Shown piece after piece: positions 10,700 through 45,191 of a stretch of 64,000 bases of DNA (position 1 is its first letter; each line of letters starts with the position of its first letter). The position numbers and the translations under genes are program-made. A model generated the notes under the pieces. It ran no database searches. It was given only the letters and a program-made list of their open reading frames with translations, and was not told the origin of the DNA. The stretch is from Protonemura montana (lineage: Eukaryota > Arthropoda > Insecta > Plecoptera > Nemouridae): positions 28,497,351 to 28,561,350 of the forward strand of contig OX387604.1 of assembly GCA_947568835.1 (NCBI GenBank), read 5' to 3'.

Positions 10700-12283
10700 A
10701 ACTGCTAGTGCTACTAGCTGCCAGTGGTACAAGCTGCCAGTGGTACTAGCTGCCAGTGGTACTAGCTGCCAGTGGTACTAGCTGCCAGTGGTACTAGCTG
10801 CCAGTGGTACTAGCTGCCAGTGGTACTAGCTGCCAGTGGTACTAGCTGCCAGTGGTACTAGCTGCCAGTGCTACTAGCTGCCAGTGGTACTAGCTGTCAG
10901 TGATACTAGCTGCCAGTGGTACTAGCTGCCAGTGGTACTAGCTGCCAGTGGTACTAGCTGCCAGTGGTACTAGCTGCCAGTGGTACTAGCTGCCAGTGGT
11001 ACTAGCTGCCAGTGGTACTAGCTGCCAGTGGTACTAGCTGCCAGTGGTACTAGCTGTCAGTGATACTAGCTGCCAGTAGTACTAGCTGCCAGTGGTACTA
11101 GCTGCCAGTGGTACTAGCTGCCAGTGGTACTAGCTGTCAGTGATACTAGCTGTCAGTGGTACTAGCTGCCAGTGGTACTAGCTGCCAGTGGTACTAGCTG
11201 TCAGTGATACTAGCTGCCAGTGGTACTAGCTGCCAGTGGTACTAGCTGCCAGTGGTACTAGCTGCCAGTGGTACTAGCTGTCAGTGATACTAGCTGCCAG
11301 TGGTACTAGCTGCCAGTGGTACTAGCTGCCAGTGGTACTAGCTGCCAGTGGTACTAGCTGCCAGTGGTACTAGCTGCCAGTGGTACTAGCTGCCAGTGGT
11401 ACTAGCTGTCAGTGGTACTAGCTGCCAGTGGTACTAGCTGCCAGTGGTACTAGCTGCCAGTGGTACTAGCTGCCAGTGGTACTAGCTGTCAGTGGTACTA
11501 GCTGCCAGTGGTACTAGCTGCCAGTGGTACTAGCTGCCAGAGGTACTAGCTGCCAGTGGTACTAGCTGTCAGTGGTACTAGCTGCCAGTGGTACTAGCTG
11601 CCAGTGGTACTAGCTTTCAGTGGTACTAGCTGCCAGTGGTACTAGCTGCCAGTGGTACTAGCTGCCAGTGGTACTAGCTGCCAGTGGTACTAGCTGCCAG
11701 TGGTACTAGCTGCCAGTGGTACTAGCTGCCAGTGGTACTAGCTGCTAGTGGTACTAGCTGCCAGTGGTACTAGCTGTCAGTGGTACTAGCTGCCAGTGAT
11801 ACTAGCTGCCAGTGGTACTAGCTGTGGGTGGTACTAGCTGCCAGTGGTACGAGCTGCCAGTGGTACTAGCTGCCAGTGGTACTAGCTGCCAGTGGTACTA
11901 GCTGCCAGTGGTACTAGCTGCCAGTGGTACTAGCTGTGGGTGGTACTAGCTGCTAGTGGTACTAGCTGCCAGTGGTACTAGCTGCCAGTGGTACTAGCTG
12001 CCAGTGGTACTAGCTGCCAGTGGTACTAGCTGCCAGTGGTACTAGCTGCCAGTGGTACTAGCTGCCAGTGGTACTAGCTGCCAGTGGTACTAGCTGCCAG
12101 TGGTACTAGCTGCCAGTGGTACTAGCTGCCAGTGGTACTAGCTGCCAGTGGTACTAGCTGCCAGTGGTACTAGCTGCCAGTGATACTAGCTGCCAGTGGT
12201 ACTAGCTGCCAGTGGTACTAGCTGCCAGTGGTACTAGCTGCCAGTGATACTAGCTGCCAGTGGTACTAGCTGTCAGTGGTACA
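10700..12283. repeat. 16-bp minisatellite, about 99 copies
   Basis: The consensus TACTAGCTGCCAGTGG runs for almost 1.6 kb. Variants recur along the array (GTCAGTGG, GTCAGTGATAC, GTGGGTGG, GCTAGTGG), in scattered blocks that indicate repeated duplication of multi-unit segments. It has no sustained open frame and is not coding. It is followed after about 165 bp by an unrelated 10-bp array. Confidence 0.97.
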
Positions 12284-15621: not shown

Positions 15622-16228
15622 CTTTCATCCCTCCAACCTCTCTCCCAAACAGAACTGGTCATGTGTATGATGGTCATCCATCCAATACCTGACTCAGCGC
15701 AGTGTTGCTTAACTTTCATCCCTCCAACCTCTCTCCCGAACAGAACTGGTCATGTGTATGATGGTCACCCATCCAATACCTGACCCAGCGCAATGTTGCT
15801 TAACTTTCATCCCTCCAACCTCTCTCCCAAACAGAACTGGTCATGTGTATGATGGTCACCCATCCAATACCTGACCCAGCGCAATGTTGCTTAACTTTCA
15901 TCCCTCCAACCTCTCTCCCGAACAGAACTGGTCATGTGTATGATGGTCACCCATTTAATACCTGACCCAGCGTAGTGTTGCTTAACTTCGGTGATCTCAT
16001 GAGAACCGGTGTTTCCAACACGGCAAACCGTTCGGTGGTCACCCATCCAATACCTGACCCAGCGCAATGTTGCTTAACTTCGGTGATCTCATGAGAACCG
16101 GTGTTTCCAACACGGCAAACCGTTCGGTGGTCACCCATCCAATACCTGACCCAGTGTAGTGTTGCTTAACTTCGGTGGTCTCACGAGGACCGGTGTTTCC
16201 AACACGGCAAACCGTTCGGTGGTGGGTG
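15622..16228 (-). repeat. 5S rRNA-derived tandem repeat (91-92 bp unit, about 6.7 copies)
   Basis: On the minus strand the last three units contain ACACCGGTTCTCATGAGATC, ACCGAAGTTAAGCAACATTG and TATTGGATGGGTGACC in order. This matches the middle of animal 5S rRNA, including the box A region and the box C region. The GGTC landmark recurs at 15672, 15763, 15854, 15945, 16037, 16129 and 16221, giving periods of 91, 91, 91, 92, 92 and 92. The first four units keep only the promoter-like half (roughly 5S positions 40-85) and carry about 48 bp of unrelated filler. A full 5S is about 120 nt, so no unit is an intact gene. It could be a 5S pseudogene array or a 5S-derived SINE-like family. Confidence 0.8.
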
Positions 16229-16246: not shown

Positions 16247-16440
16247 ATAAATAAATGCACTGGGAATTAATAGACTGGGTAACGAAATATTACCAAATTG
16301 AATTGAAAGTTAGATTTTGTGAAAATAAGGAATTTGTTTGGCCTTGCCTCAACAAGAACGGTAGCGAAAGCCACGAGTTTTTCCTGCCAGCAACGTGTAT
16401 CGCTTCGAATGAAATGGTTGGGTAACATTTATTTATTCAA
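16247..16440. repeat. 194-bp direct repeat, copy 1
   Basis: This sequence recurs at 18122-18315 without indels and with two substitutions (AAATTGAAT versus AAATCGAAT, and CAACGTG versus CAATGTG). It starts a few bases after the 5S-like array and its short GGTG/GGATGG tail. No coding content is recognised; the open frame that begins inside it (16319-16504) does not continue in copy 2. Confidence 0.95.
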
Positions 16441-18121: not shown

Positions 18122-18315
18122 ATAAATAAATGCACTGGGAATTAATAGACTGGGTAACGAAATATTACCAAATCGAATTGAAAGTTAGATTTTGTGAAAA
18201 TAAGGAATTTGTTTGGCCTTGCCTCAACAAGAACGGTAGCGAAAGCCACGAGTTTTTCCTGCCAGCAATGTGTATCGCTTCGAATGAAATGGTTGGGTAA
18301 CATTTATTTATTCAA
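18122..18315. repeat. 194-bp direct repeat, copy 2
   Basis: The partner of 16247-16440, in the same orientation 1,875 bp away and 192/194 identical. The flanks beyond both ends differ, so the homology breaks sharply. Confidence 0.95.
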
Positions 18316-26251: not shown

Positions 26252-27980
26252 GTCACACAGTCACACAGTCACACAGTCACACAGTCACACAGTCACACAG
26301 TCACACAGTCACACAGTCACACAGTCACACAGTCACACAGTCACACAGTCACACAGTCACACAGTCACACAGTCACACAGTCACACAGTCACACAGTCAC
26401 ACAGTCACACAGTCACACAGTCACACAGTCACACAGTCACACAGTCACACAGTCACACGGTCACACAGTCACACAGTCACACAGTCACACAGTCACACAG
26501 TCACACAGTCACACGGTCACACAGTCACACAGTCACACAGTCACACAGTCACACAGTCACACAGTCACACAGTCACACAGTCACACAGTCACACAGTCAC
26601 ACAGTCACACAGTCACACAGTCACACAGTCACACAGTCACACAGTCACACAGTCACACAGTCACACGGTCACACAGTCACACAGTCACACAGTCACACAG
26701 TCACACAGTCACACAGTCACACGGTCACACAGTCACACAGTCACACGGTCACACAGTCACACAGTCACACAGTCACACAGTCACACAGTCACACAGTCAC
26801 ACAGTCACACAGTCACACGGTCACACAGTCACACAGTCACACAGTCACACAGTCACACAGTCACAGTCACACAGTCACACAGTCACACAGTCACACAGTC
26901 ACACAGTCACACAGTCACACAGTCACACAGTCACACAGTCACACGGTCACACAGTCACACAGTCACACAGTCACACAGTCACACAGTCACACAGTCACAC
27001 AGTCACACAGTCACACAGTCACACAGTCACACAGTCACACAGTCACACAGTCACACAGTCACACAGTCACACAGTCACACAGTCACACAGTCACACAGTC
27101 ACACAGTCACACAGTCACACAGTCACACAGTCACACAGTCACACAGTCACACAGTCACACAGTCACACAGTCACACGGTCACACAGTCACACAGTCACAC
27201 AGTCACACAGTCACACAGTCACACAGTCACACGGTCACACAGTCACACAGTCACACGGTCACACAGTCACACAGTCACACAGTCACACAGTCACACAGTC
27301 ACACAGTCACACAGTCACACAGTCACACGGTCACACAGTCACACAGTCACACAGTCACACAGTCACACAGTCACAGTCACACAGTCACACAGTCACACAG
27401 TCACACAGTCACACAGTCACACAGTCACACAGTCACACAGTCACACAGTCACACGGTCACACAGTCACACAGTCACACAGTCACACAGTCACACAGTCAC
27501 ACAGTCACACAGTCACACAGTCACACAGTCACACAGTCACACAGTCACACAGTCACACAGTCACACAGTCACACAGTCACACAGTCACACAGTCACACAG
27601 TCACACAGTCACACAGTCACACAGTCACACAGTCACACGGTCACACAGTCACACAGTCACACAGTCACACAGTCACACAGTCACACAGTCACACAGTCAC
27701 ACAGTCACACAGTCACAGTCACACAGTCACACAGTCACACAGTCACACAGTCACACAGTCACACAGTCACACAGTCACACAGTCACACAGTCACACAGTC
27801 ACACGGTCACACAGTCACACAGTCACACAGTCACAGTCACACAGTCACACAGTCACACGGTCACACAGTCACACAGTCACACAGTCACACAGTCACACGG
27901 TCACACAGTCACACAGTCACACGGTCACACAGTCACACAGTCACACAGTCACACAGTCACACGGTCACACAGTCACACGG
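26252..27980. repeat. 8-bp satellite, about 216 copies, with a 510-bp higher-order duplication
   Basis: The consensus is CACACAGT. Variants are CACACGGT and five short units CACAGT. Variant landmarks at 26661, 26721, 26741, 26811, 26861 and 26941 recur at 27171, 27231, 27251, 27321, 27371 and 27451, each exactly 510 bp on (64 units minus the 2 bp lost in the short unit). Two roughly 625-codon frames reading His-Thr-Val-Thr-Gln-Ser run through it. They are open because the unit has no stop and shift frame at the short units, so no gene is called. Confidence 0.97.
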
Positions 27981-38334: not shown

Positions 38335-38954
38335 CTAACGACCCTGACTAACATTATAAGGCAAGTTTGGTGCACGCTGCATTTCTTAGCTTTCAACTTT
38401 ATTTATGAATATTTTCATTGTGTTCGTAGCGTTCGATTACAATGTGTAAGCAAAATAAAAGCAAACAAATCGACTATATTTTTTGTTATCTATATTATTA
38501 AAACGTTGTTATCGACCTTCCATCAAGTAATTAATCTTTCATTTCAATGCACAATGATGATCGGAACGCTGTGATTTCCGTTTAATCCTAGGAATTGAGT
38601 GACGTGAGTTAAGTGAGTGATGTTAAACCAGGTTTAGAAGAGAATTATTGTGCAACATGCAATAGTGTCCAGAGTGGAGAAGTATTTGACTGCATTTTCC
38701 TGAAATATTTTATTCCGGATATTGAAAAGAATAATTTTAAGTACAGAACAATGAAGTGTTCAGAGACAACAGCGATGGCTTTATCCGAGTCATATTTAAA
38801 CTTTTAAGTTGCAATGCAGTTTTCATTTGTTTCAGAAACCGAGCGGCGAATGTCAATAGAAATGATAAATATTTCAATCAATGGCAATCAACAACGAAGC
38901 TTTATTAGGATGAACTCTTATTTCAATTGCAAACACTTGCAATGCGCGGGGTAT
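38335..38954. other. Unique AT-rich stretch, nothing firmly recognised
   Basis: A 64-codon plus frame at 38613-38807 has protein-like composition (two Cys pairs) but no ATG at its start. No splice-supported exon seen. Confidence 0.4.
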
Positions 38955-39105
38955 TTTATTATTAACAACACTATAACCGTCTCAAAAAGCCAGTGTCCAG
39001 ATAGCTCAATGGTTCAGAGCAACACCCGCGAAAGGTGGAGATCGGGGTTCGAGTCCGCGTTCGTGCATCAATTTTTGAGACGGTTATAGTGTTGTTAATA
39101 ATAAA
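38955..39105 (+). mobile_element. 151-bp element: tRNA-like gene between perfect 34-bp inverted repeats
   Basis: The left arm 38955-38988 and the right arm 39072-39105 are exact reverse complements over 34 bp, and the match stops at once on both sides. They enclose 83 bp that hold a tRNA-like sequence (listed separately). The right arm opens with TTTTT, which doubles as an RNA polymerase III terminator. No clear target-site duplication is visible. It could be a miniature inverted-repeat transposon that carries a tRNA-derived promoter, or a fold-back structure made by template switching. No other copy lies in this window. Confidence 0.75.
38995..39067 (+). tRNA. tRNA-like sequence (degenerate, nominal anticodon CGA)
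   Basis: Box A TAGCTCAATGG (39002-39012) and box B GGTTCGAGTCC (39046-39056) match the RNA polymerase III consensus at every defined position. A 73-nt cloverleaf can be drawn: D stem GCTC/GAGC, anticodon stem ACACC/GGTGG (4 of 5 pairs), T stem 4 of 5, acceptor 5 of 7. The anticodon loop CGCGAAA lacks the invariant U at position 33, and the variable loop is too short for a serine tRNA. It is therefore more likely a tRNA-derived promoter or pseudogene than a decoding tRNA. A T5 terminator follows at 39072. Confidence 0.6.
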
Positions 39106-39396
39106 GCAACGAAACTTCATTGCTGGACAAAAACACAATAACAAAATCAGCATTGAAAAACCTATACCAACAACAGGGCGTGGGGGATTGAGGGATTGAA
39201 AGGGAACTTTTCATAAAACTTAACATATTATACCAACGTTACTAGTGCCTGCCTGAACAAAAGTCAAACACATGCTGTGATTCACAGCGAAAAGCAAAGA
39301 GATACCTGAAATATCATGGGAAACCTTCACGGTTTTATAGATACGGGAAAATTCAAATGTTAAGCATATCGCTTCCCCATCGCAATACGAGAAAAC
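39106..39396. other. Unique AT-rich stretch, nothing recognised
   Basis: No supported feature. Confidence 0.45.
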
Positions 39397-40908: not shown

Positions 40909-43482
40909 CAACAGAGAGCAGAGAGGAGTGCAGAGAGGAGTGCAGAGAGGAGTGCAGAGAGGAGAGCAGAGAGGAGAGCAGAGAGGAGTGCAGAGAGGAG
41001 TGCAGAGAGGAGTGCAGAGAGGAGAGCAGAGAGGAGAGCAGAGAGGAGTGCAGAGAGGAGAGAGGAGAGCAGAGAGGAGTGCAGAGAGGAGTGCAGAGAG
41101 CAGAGAGGAGAGCAGAGAGGAGTGCAGAGAGGAGAGAGGAGAGCAGAGAGGAGTGCAGAGAGGAGTGCAGAGAGCAGAGAGGAGAGCAGAGAGGAGAGCA
41201 GAGAGGAGAGAGGAGAGCAGAGAGGAGAGCAGAGAGGAGAGCAGAGAGGAGAGCAGAGAGGAGTGCAGAGAGGAGTGCAGAGAGGAGTGCAGAGAGGAGT
41301 GCAGAGAGGAGAGAGGAGTGCAGAGAGGAGAGCAGAGAGGAGAGAGGAGAGCAGAGAGGAGTGCAGAGAGGAGTGCAGAGAGGAGAGCAGAGAGGAGTGC
41401 AGAGAGCAGAGAGGAGAGCAGAGAGGAGTGCAGAGAGCAGAGAGGAGTGCAGAGAGGAGTGCAGAGAGCAGAGAGGAGTGCAGAGAGGAGAGCAGAGAGG
41501 AGAGCAGAGAGGAGAGCAGAGAGGAGTGCAGAGAGGAGAGCAGAGAGGAGAGCAGAGAGGAGTGCAGAGAGGAGTGCAGAGAGGAGTGCAGAGAGGAGAG
41601 CAGAGAGGAGAGCAGAGAGGAGTGCAGAGAGGAGAGAGGAGAGCAGAGAGGAGTGCAGAGAGGAGTGCAGAGAGCAGAGAGGAGAGCAGAGAGGAGTGCA
41701 GAGAGGAGAGAGGAGAGCAGAGAGGAGTGCAGAGAGGAGTGCAGAGAGCAGAGAGGAGAGCAGAGAGGAGTGCAGAGAGCAGAGAGGAGTGCAGAGAGGA
41801 GTGCAGAGAGCAGAGAGGAGTGCAGAGAGGAGAGCAGAGAGGAGAGCAGAGAGGAGAGCAGAGAGGAGTGCAGAGAGGAGTGCAGAGAGCAGAGAGGAGT
41901 GCAGAGAGGAGAGCAGAGAGGAGTGCAGAGAGGAGTGCAGAGAGGAGAGCAGAGAGGAGAGCAGAGAGGAGTGCAGAGAGCAGAGAGGAGTGCAGAGAGG
42001 AGAGCAGAGAGGAGAGCAGAGAGGAGAGAGGAGTGCAGAGAGGAGAGCAGAGAGGAGAGAGGAGAGCAGAGAGGAGAGCAGAGAGGAGAGCAGAGAGGAG
42101 AGCAGAGAGGAGTGCAGAGAGGAGTGCAGAGAGGAGTGCAGAGAGGAGTGCAGAGAGGAGAGAGGAGTGCAGAGAGGAGAGCAGAGAGGAGAGAGGAGAG
42201 CAGAGAGGAGAGCAGAGAGGAGAGCAGAGAGGAGTGCAGAGAGGAGTGCAGAGAGGAGTGCAGAGAGGAGAGAGGAGAGCAGAGAGGAGAGCAGAGAGGA
42301 GAGAGGAGTGCAGAGAGGAGTGCAGAGAGGAGTGCAGAGAGGAGAGCAGAGAGGAGTGCAGAGAGGAGTGCAGAGAGGAGTGCAGAGAGGAGAGCAGAGA
42401 GGAGTGCAGAGAGGAGTGCAGAGAGCAGAGAGGAGTGCAGAGAGGAGAGCAGAGAGGAGTGCAGAGAGGAGTGCAGAGAGGAGAGCAGAGAGGAGAGCAG
42501 AGAGGAGTGCAGAGAGCAGAGAGGAGTGCAGAGAGGAGAGCAGAGAGGAGAGCAGAGAGGAGAGAGGAGTGCAGAGAGGAGAGCAGAGAGGAGAGAGGAG
42601 AGCAGAGAGGAGAGCAGAGAGGAGAGCAGAGAGGAGAGCAGAGAGGAGTGCAGAGAGGAGTGCAGAGAGGAGTGCAGAGAGGAGTGCAGAGAGGAGAGAG
42701 GAGTGCAGAGAGGAGAGCAGAGAGGAGAGAGGAGAGCAGAGAGGAGAGCAGAGAGGAGAGCAGAGAGGAGTGCAGAGAGGAGTGCAGAGAGGAGTGCAGA
42801 GAGGAGAGAGGAGAGCAGAGAGGAGAGCAGAGAGGAGAGAGGAGTGCAGAGAGGAGTGCAGAGAGGAGAGCAGAGAGGAGAGCAGAGAGGAGTGCAGAGA
42901 GCAGAGAGGAGTGCAGAGAGGAGAGCAGAGAGGAGAGCAGAGAGGAGAGCAGAGAGGAGTGCAGAGAGCAGAGAGGAGTGCAGAGAGGAGAGCAGAGAGG
43001 AGAGCAGAGAGGAGAGCAGAGAGGAGAGCAGAGAGGAGTGCAGAGAGCAGAGAGGAGTGCAGAGAGGAGTGCAGAGAGGAGAGCAGAGAGGAGTGCAGAG
43101 AGGAGTGCAGAGAGGAGTGCAGAGAGGAGTGCAGAGAGGAGAGCAGAGAGGAGTGCAGAGAGGAGTGCAGAGAGGAGTGCAGAGAGGAGTGCAGAGAGGA
43201 GTGCAGAGAGCAGAGAGGAGTGCAGAGAGGAGTGCAGAGAGGAGAGCAGAGAGGAGTGCAGAGAGGAGTGCAGAGAGGAGAGCAGAGAGGAGTGCAGAGA
43301 GGAGAGCAGAGAGGAGAGCAGAGAGGAGTGCAGAGAGGAGTGCAGAGAGGAGTGCAGAGAGGAGTGCAGAGAGGAGAGCAGAGAGGAGTGCAGAGAGGAG
43401 AGCAGAGAGGAGAGCAGAGAGCAGAGAGGAGAGCTGAGAGGAGAGCTGAGAGGAGAGCAGAGAGGAGTGCAGAGAGGAGAGC
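40909..43482. repeat. 2.6-kb purine-rich array of 12-bp units with higher-order repeats
   Basis: It mixes AGAGAGGAGTGC and AGAGAGGAGAGC units with shortened forms (extra AGAGAGC or AGAGAGGAG pieces). A recognisable block with four AGC units, four TGC units and then GAGAGGAGAGAGGAGTGC recurs with its landmark at 41316, 42165 and 42701; the last two are 536 bp apart. The plus strand is nearly all purine apart from one TGC or GC step per unit. Frames of 771-911 codons run through it on both strands (Arg/Glu/Ala/Ser on plus, Leu/Ser/His/Pro/Cys on minus). Block copies change frame between repeats, so these are not genes. Confidence 0.97.
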
Positions 43483-45191
43483 AGTTTAGAGCCTGCTTTT
43501 GCTTGGATGCTTTGGGACACCAGATTACGAATGCAAACAGCCACTATCTTTTATCTTTTATCAGCGTAGTGGCAAACATCACTGTGTATGTTTGCTTCCT
43601 CCTCTCCTGCTTGGATCTAACGATCTACCTTGCAATGAACAGACCCATGGATTACATCACGTTATTCCGAACAGAACAACTAGGGTTAAGCTAATCAACA
43701 TCTGGGTTTCAGTTTTTTTCATTTATAATAAGTTTCATTGCAGTGAAGCATTTCATGAGGTCCACAACTCGATTAGAGAAATTCATATGTGATCATTTCT
43801 GCTTCCATATCATTTGCGTTTTGTTTGCTTAGAGGTTAGACTTTGCAGAAACCAGCATTTTTACCCTCTGAAAAGCTGAAAGCGGTGTACAGGGATAGCT
43901 GGTTGGCATTCCATATGAATTCATAATTTACAGAGCTTTTTGGAAAATGCCATCATCTAACAAATTAGAACATAACAGCTGGGGTTGTTAATTTTTGCCA
44001 AGAGATTATATTTTCACAGCTTTTAAATTCGAATACGTTTCGAAAATAAATTGACAGCAATATTTCATGGAGTATCAAGAAGCCTACACACTGTATCATC
44101 AATCACAAAGTGTCAACGCCCAATGCATAATATTCGAGTTCGGAAACGTTTTTTTTTTTTCATTTTTTTTTAAATTTTTTATATAAAATCGCTGCATCAA
44201 AATTGAACGCGATAGTGTTAAATTATTTTGCAGCACTGTGTTAAATAAATCAGTGTGTTTAAAAAACTTTGGTGTGACAAAATTTCATTATTGTATTCAG
44301 CTTCCTATGGGGATCGTAATGCGTAACGCATAGTGGGCACCCATTAAATGAATTTCACCCAAATAATTGGCCGTTTTAAAGCCACCGAGCCAAGTTGCAC
44401 ACGCAGATGTAATACAACTTTGGCTTTCTGCGTTTCTCGCTCCCTTGTCCCGTAATCGTGACACGCAATAGATTTAAATAATTGCAATGATTGCCGCAGG
44501 CAGTGTTCGAGTAAGTGACTTTGTTTCTGACATTCATAGGCGCTGGCTTGAATACCTATTTGATATTTTAGTTATATTCCATGGAAGACTGAACTCGCTC
44601 CACAATGAGGCATAGCACAGCGTTCAAAACGAATACTTGCCAACCTTTTTCTGCCGTGACTTGGGAGCAGACTGTTTCCTCTTTTTGCGTTTCTATTTAA
44701 TCTAAAACTGTAAAATCTCACCGTCGAGTTTGCTCAAAAGGTCCAATAGCGGTGGTCGATGAAGGAAGTAATAACGTGTCAGTCAGCATCTCTCAATGTT
44801 AATTAAATACTGGCGAGTGCCTGGCGAGTGCAAGTGATGTAGGTGTAAGTACTTGGGTTCTCGAACTGCATGGAACGCGGGCTATGGTCGTGTTTTAGAC
44901 CCAACACGTGGGTCCCAGCAAGGGGCAGGGGGGTGAACAGGGTGGGGCAGGGAGGGGCAAGGGATAAGACGCTTCGGCACACCATCGTCGTAGTAGTTGG
45001 CTTCAAATTGATGTCACGTGATACATAATAACAGAGACTGTTCTTGAAAGGAGTTTCTTATTTGTTCTTTGGAAAACTGTGAAAAGGACTGTAAAGGAAA
45101 CGGGTTCCGTCGCAATGAAATATTATTGATAAAATTACTCGATTTTCCCAGAGTCACAAGACGAGTTGTGTGATTGAATAATTGGAAACGT
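43483..45191. other. Unique AT-rich stretch with T-rich patches, nothing recognised
   Basis: Runs of T lie near 44149-44178. No supported coding or RNA feature was found. Confidence 0.45.

Follow-up and report, generated by a model that had tools for sequence, protein, structure and literature searches.

A dispersed tRNA-bearing repeat of Protonemura montana as a probable retrozyme-like insertion of the Penelope-like type

For Penelope-like elements (PLEs), the purified PLE protein cuts both DNA strands and extends them from internal start sites, and the PLE tail is the stretch between the two start sites of the reverse transcriptase (RT) (PMC11167929). Inverted pseudo-long terminal repeats (pLTRs) have been described in which a 31-bp tail is optional on one of the two and target duplications measure 8-10 bp, and self-priming on the antisense template has been proposed for inverted Penelope ends (PMC3846280). 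PLEs have also been proposed as the movers of retrozymes, which are short tandem repeats with hammerhead ribozymes (PMC7229834, PMC7761336). In this work, we analyze a tRNA-like sequence enclosed by perfect inverted arms that lies within 64,000 nucleotides of the genome of Protonemura montana (assembly GCA_947568835.1, contig OX387604.1, positions 28,497,351 to 28,561,350 of the forward strand; this whole stretch is called the window). Judging from sequence comparison, the window copy is most likely an insertion of a non-autonomous, retrozyme-like retroelement of the PLE type.

The window copy, its family and the 331-bp unit

The initial annotation described positions 38955-39105 as a compact 151-bp element whose tRNA-like sequence contains A and B boxes and is framed by perfect 34-bp arms, the right arm opening with T5. 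The sequence check agrees on the arms, on the boxed tRNA-like sequence and on TTTTT at 39072-39076: the arms (38955-38988 and 39072-39105; 34 nt each) are complementary at 34 of 34 positions with 83 nt between them, and they form the longest inverted repeat within the 2.3 kb examined around the copy. The length of 151 bp proved incomplete, as a 50-bp tail at 38905-38954 adds to this core and brings the full element to 201 bp (38905-39105). ARAGORN places a tRNA, labelled Ser(CGA), at 38994-39069, and the Rfam tRNA match at 38995-39067 reaches 34.1 bits against a gathering score of 29. Sister copies score up to 44.5 bits, so that some degradation has affected the tRNA-like sequence in the window. 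By the box consensuses, TAGCTCAATGG is the A box and GGTTCGAGTCC is the B box.

The element in the window belongs to a family dispersed through the genome and exceeds what chance would give. At least 43 further sites match 137 or more of the 151 bases at 91-97% identity (best 40 of 1511 candidates scored), and the 27-nt junction of right arm and tail has 719 exact matches (355 + 364) in the 258-Mb genome, compared with 0 for the reversed pattern. These junctions, together with the target duplications at the copies described below, bear out the initial view of a multi-copy mobile element with a tRNA-like sequence of the RNA polymerase III (Pol III) type. In the following, loci labelled L are pieces fetched from the same genome, and contigs are labelled C. 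In the first 39 loci compared, mostly one arm runs on into a 50-bp stretch and the other borders host DNA. When an internal stretch was used as query, the 30 loci obtained disclosed a cyclic 331-bp unit that consists of the parts X (1-90), I (91-164), the tRNA-like T (165-247), C (248-281) and the tail A (282-331). Part A directly precedes X in 39 of 39 cases (one, with a mutated tail, was judged by eye, and duplicated loci were kept in); therefore, the source is repeated head to tail. The family also includes 5'-truncated copies and head-to-tail dimers. Read against this unit, the window copy has the following features:

38892..38902, no strand: left target duplication (CAACGAAGCTT), 10/11 identical to the right copy
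38905..38954, minus strand: 50-nt tail, unit 331 to 282 by unit alignment, inverted here and overlooked in the initial annotation
38955..38988, minus strand: left arm, unit 281 to 248
38989..39071, plus strand: tRNA-like module T, unit 165-247 (ARAGORN, Rfam)
39002..39012, plus strand: A box
39046..39056, plus strand: B box
39072-39076: T5, start of the right arm
39072..39105, plus strand: right arm, unit 248 to 281, T5 first; on its outer side the insertion ends without a tail
39107..39117, no strand: right target duplication (CAACGAAACTT), 10/11 identical to CAACGAAGCTT

The distribution of related sequences showed some further features. Long arrays of a 52-bp tRNA-like piece, in which the A box is repeated, occur in L050-L053, L057, L058 and L066 (for example, L050:1646-2491), and L050-L053 resemble each other though they lie on different contigs. 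Among the first 100 places listed for the family junction, 61 are on C1, and 27 of these cluster in the final 3.1 Mb of its 33.1 Mb. The window itself is about 1.1 Mb away from the end of C16.

Insertion ends, target duplications and junctions

Read against the unit, the copies run inverted from about position 281 and then direct to 331, with varying junctions in between, so that one end carries the 50-nt tail and the other end carries none. All 40 elements that were selected for possessing both end types fit this layout; for either end, 39 of the 40 agree to within a few bases. The ends were also typed without that selection, for 86 clusters in 69 loci, of which 8 at locus edges and 4 with repeated context were dropped. 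Among the 74 typed clusters, 39 have 281/331 ends (32 directly and 7 with a tail end overrunning by 4-9 nt), none has 281/281 ends and none has clear 331/331 ends; the remaining clusters are truncated, merged or decayed. One of the loci, L033, is a 281/331 insertion, as its duplication shows, next to a loose tail piece. Furthermore, 20 tail sites were drawn across the first 100 matches listed (C1 and C2 only), a sample that is unable to reveal 281/281 insertions. A second tail was found at none of these 20 sites: the other end was at 282-287 in 10, at 263 in one, 5'-truncated in 6 and off the fetched piece in 3.

Of the 40 elements, 30 are bordered by exact target duplications of 9-17 bp, mostly 12-13 bp. 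When pairs of ends were scored, a duplication score of at least 9 was reached by 34 of 67, versus 0 of 388 cross-locus control pairs (control maximum 8), with a slight bias toward the observed side, because each of the 67 took its best candidate and the controls had one. The 67 pairs were left after 35 of 102 tail ends lacking an upstream tail-less end had been set aside. The window duplication is imperfect in this test (13/15, score 7, which 15 of the 388 control pairs also reach) and, taken alone, is modest evidence.

These results bear on the suggestion that the element is a miniature inverted-repeat transposable element (MITE) that acquired a tRNA promoter. A cut-and-paste DNA element with terminal inverted repeats would fit the 34-bp arms at the borders of the 151 bp and the short, non-coding copies. 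However, the duplications of 9-17 bp have no constant length, the two ends are unequal, 5'-truncated copies and head-to-tail dimers exist, and the inner length of the 40 elements ranges from 136 to 1133 bp with varying junctions. The MITE suggestion is contradicted by these features, and we consider such an origin hardly conceivable.

A PLE-type insertion would proceed differently. The source RNA would be read from head-to-tail 331-nt units (X, I, T, C, A), a PLE enzyme would make cuts in the two strands of AT-rich DNA, and each broken end would prime on the RNA, presumably on one and the same molecule. One primer would be placed at the tail end (unit 331) and the other 50 nt upstream (unit ~281); each cDNA would then run back a variable distance, and the two cDNAs would be joined head to head. 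For the window copy, joining across a 21-bp stem bearing the tRNA-like sequence would yield the 201-bp form with its two 34-bp arms.

This stem, of about 21 bp, is predicted in the RNA between unit positions 144-164 and 248-268 and carries T at its tip. The predicted energy is -50.4 kcal/mol (z -6.3), which none of 200 shuffles equalled, and the two strands of the stem coincide with the inner portions of the arms. By a script criterion, 14 of the 40 elements have their junction in the stem (in this class, L014 has a 13-nt filler and L021 extra units). In 9 of these, among them the window copy, the tRNA-like sequence is antisense to the tail; in the other 5 it is sense. Only 4 of the 13 comparable copies, again including the window copy, have identical arms (one arm, in L039, was unreadable), because two stem alleles exist and the joined arm may carry either. 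Thus, joining of the cDNAs at the stem would account for the perfect repeat. Recent formation, which had been read from the perfect arms, does not follow: the arms would be two reads of one RNA stem, of which the surviving allele differs between copies.

The recurrence of the stem class (14/40) might also be expected if a single inverted master copy, or a self-primed fold-back made once, had given rise to all copies by descent, and self-priming on the antisense template is indeed what has been proposed for Penelope ends (PMC3846280). However, the stem class splits both by orientation of the tRNA-like sequence and by stem allele, the 26 copies outside it have 26 different junctions, and self-priming alone does not yield a one-ended tail. 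Such a single origin is therefore very improbable. The earlier idea of a fold-back by template switching comes close in spirit to the insertion proposed here, but the event recurs with new junctions and is not tied to one tRNA locus.

Penelope-like elements in the same genome and weighing of the PLE reading

A weak GIY-YIG match led to P0001, a reverse transcriptase with an RVT_1 match of 8e-13, a GIY-YIG stretch of 18.7 bits (below the cut-off of 22.6) and 94 matches in the genome. The PLE in L072 has an uninterrupted frame of 856 aa. It possesses two direct pLTRs with 98.6% identity and a third, inverted one, has a tail of 50 nt and is flanked by a duplication of about 12 bp. Pieces of the L072 pLTR are present in 13 of 70 loci, all of which had been fetched for other reasons. 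In 8 of 8 two-ended pLTR mini-copies, one end lies at pLTR position 343-345 and the other at 290-296, which corresponds to a tail of about 47-53 nt, and 4 of the 8 have a duplication score of at least 9. The one-tail rule is common to the L072 PLE, its mini-copies and the 331-bp unit, and we therefore count it in favor of the PLE reading. Presumably, the family of the 331-bp unit is moved by a PLE enzyme, which may come from the L072 family.

Two further observations concern these PLEs. L010:2318-2648 and seven other loci hold pLTR-only mini-copies of the L072 family, some with a hammerhead pattern, near copies of the unit family. In addition, eight copies of a 487-aa PLE frame with 100% identical protein are found on C5, C11, C12, C13 and C14, mostly within about 1.2 Mb of the contig ends, like a recently copied end block.

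The loci were scanned with a minimal hammerhead pattern, which gave 8 matches in 307,346 bases on both strands. Three of these lie in L072, two in L010, and one each in L041 and L069, all within L072-type pLTRs; the eighth is located in L071 just behind the RT frame. Rfam ribozymes were not detected in five loci of the family up to E = 1. The tRNA-like sequence on its stem ends 13 nt before the first start site of the unit, and the hammerhead pattern of L072 begins 92 nt before the corresponding start site. As far as sequence patterns can tell, the unit thus has a predicted tRNA-like structure on a stem where the coexisting PLEs carry a candidate minimal hammerhead motif, which is a new feature. 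T may act as a promoter or a processing signal, and the T5 right behind it speaks against Pol III transcription of the entire unit from T. We regard as tentative, and on balance doubtful, the further-reaching proposal that the tRNA-like sequence on the stem replaced the hammerhead as RNA processor, with host RNase P and tRNase Z cutting the concatemer into units and possibly circles, and that the one-tail pairing shows priming of both broken ends on a single shared RNA.

Several results weigh against the PLE reading. None of the 8 hammerhead matches lies in the unit, and the doubled unit has no CTGANGA core. The tail region has no fold that stands out from shuffled sequences (z +1.5; 188 of 200 did equally well), while the start of the PLE PAc is a stem-loop; moreover, the start sites of PAc are alike on both strands, which by itself does not predict a strict one-tail rule (PMC11167929). 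A possible exception to this rule is the decayed L049:411-624, with tail pieces at both ends. Between the unit and L072, likeness is limited to the end motifs (CATCNTAA, TAAA) and the length of the tail, and the tails align weakly (69 of 2000 shuffles did equally well). No clear resemblance of a pLTR or tail to the unit was found in family 1 (L071, L073) or family 2 (L072, L074-L079) of the PLE/RT families. Because the sequence likeness is limited, we propose that the unit functions like a PLE substrate and do not claim descent from the L072 PLE. As to the unit itself, mean identities by part (X 98.8, I 96.4, T 97.4, C 97.4 and A 96.7%) reveal no special conservation of T relative to its neighbors and thus give no sign of selection on its fold.

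PLE insertion is only partly known; in vitro, there are two internal RT starts, with the strands alike (PMC11167929). In the short copies described here, the two ends are preserved for many insertions, and they suggest that the two starts are used within a single insertion, each at a different DNA end. The model of one RNA and two primers thus becomes testable by counting ends. If the tRNA-like sequence indeed stands in for the hammerhead, mobile RNAs of the PLE type would be linked to the host tRNA-processing pathway. A tRNA-bearing repeat of the PLE type is not named in the title or abstract opening of the publications found, in a search that left most subscription journals outside.

Elsewhere in the window, a 92-bp tandem repeat at 15944-16223 has a likeness to 5S rRNA (Rfam 5S at 16022-16117, minus strand, 43 bits), and two near-identical 56-codon frames (MHWELIDWVTKYYQ...) at 16255-16422 and 18130-18297, 1.9 kb apart, represent a local duplication. 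The window is rich in long minisatellites with units of 8-60 bp (80 rows), such as those at 10702-12282, 26252-27978 and 40913-43484. Outside the window, several Wnt exon matches inside 90 kb mark a Wnt gene cluster at C1:24.70-24.79 Mb. In all, the genome gave 41 Wnt matches, compared with none in any of 14 control genomes, which marks the host as an animal.

Comparison with known systems

Short interspersed elements (SINEs) derived from tRNAs have Pol III boxes, are short and dispersed, and have variable duplications, all of which they have in common with the unit family. A tRNA-derived SINE moved by a long interspersed element, with frequent twin priming giving inverted 5' parts, would explain these features along with the 5' truncation, and the genome is rich in RTs (at least 150 RVT_1 matches; best 150 of 1781 candidates scored). 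Twin priming is known in L1, where 5' inversion is frequent, but it is rare for Alu and SVA (PMC2912911). In 5'-inverted L1 copies, as proposed for the unit, a single RNA is primed from two DNA ends, and the head-to-head joining of the resulting cDNAs often takes place at short homologies (PMC2912911). However, twin priming of L1 is a variant event with an unfixed second start, whereas in the unit family the inverted form is the commonest one and the second start is fixed near 281. In addition, unlike in tRNA-derived SINEs, the tRNA-like sequence of the unit is not 5'-terminal but internal (165-247), stands in either orientation to the tail and is immediately followed by T5. A SINE origin is thus unlikely.

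Metazoan non-LTR retrozymes (PMC7229834, PMC7761336) are, like the unit, short (150-450 bp), tandem and non-coding. They also share with it target duplications longer than those of LTR elements and the coexistence of PLEs as their proposed movers. Retrozymes, however, are defined by the hammerhead, which was not found in the unit.

Penelope/Poseidon PLEs, such as PAc of Anolis (PMC11167929) and Pen2a of Adineta vaga (PMC3846280), share with the unit family the layout of tandem and head-to-head inverted copies, of which one inverted end bears a tail. Both insert into AT-rich targets with duplications of variable length, and in both the tail is explained by two internal RT starts. Unlike these PLEs, the unit is without an open reading frame or hammerhead, bears a tRNA-like sequence on a stem and reaches a high copy number. 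Its tail measures 50 nt compared with about 30-40 nt in Penelope/Poseidon PLEs, and it strictly pairs one tailed with one tail-less end.
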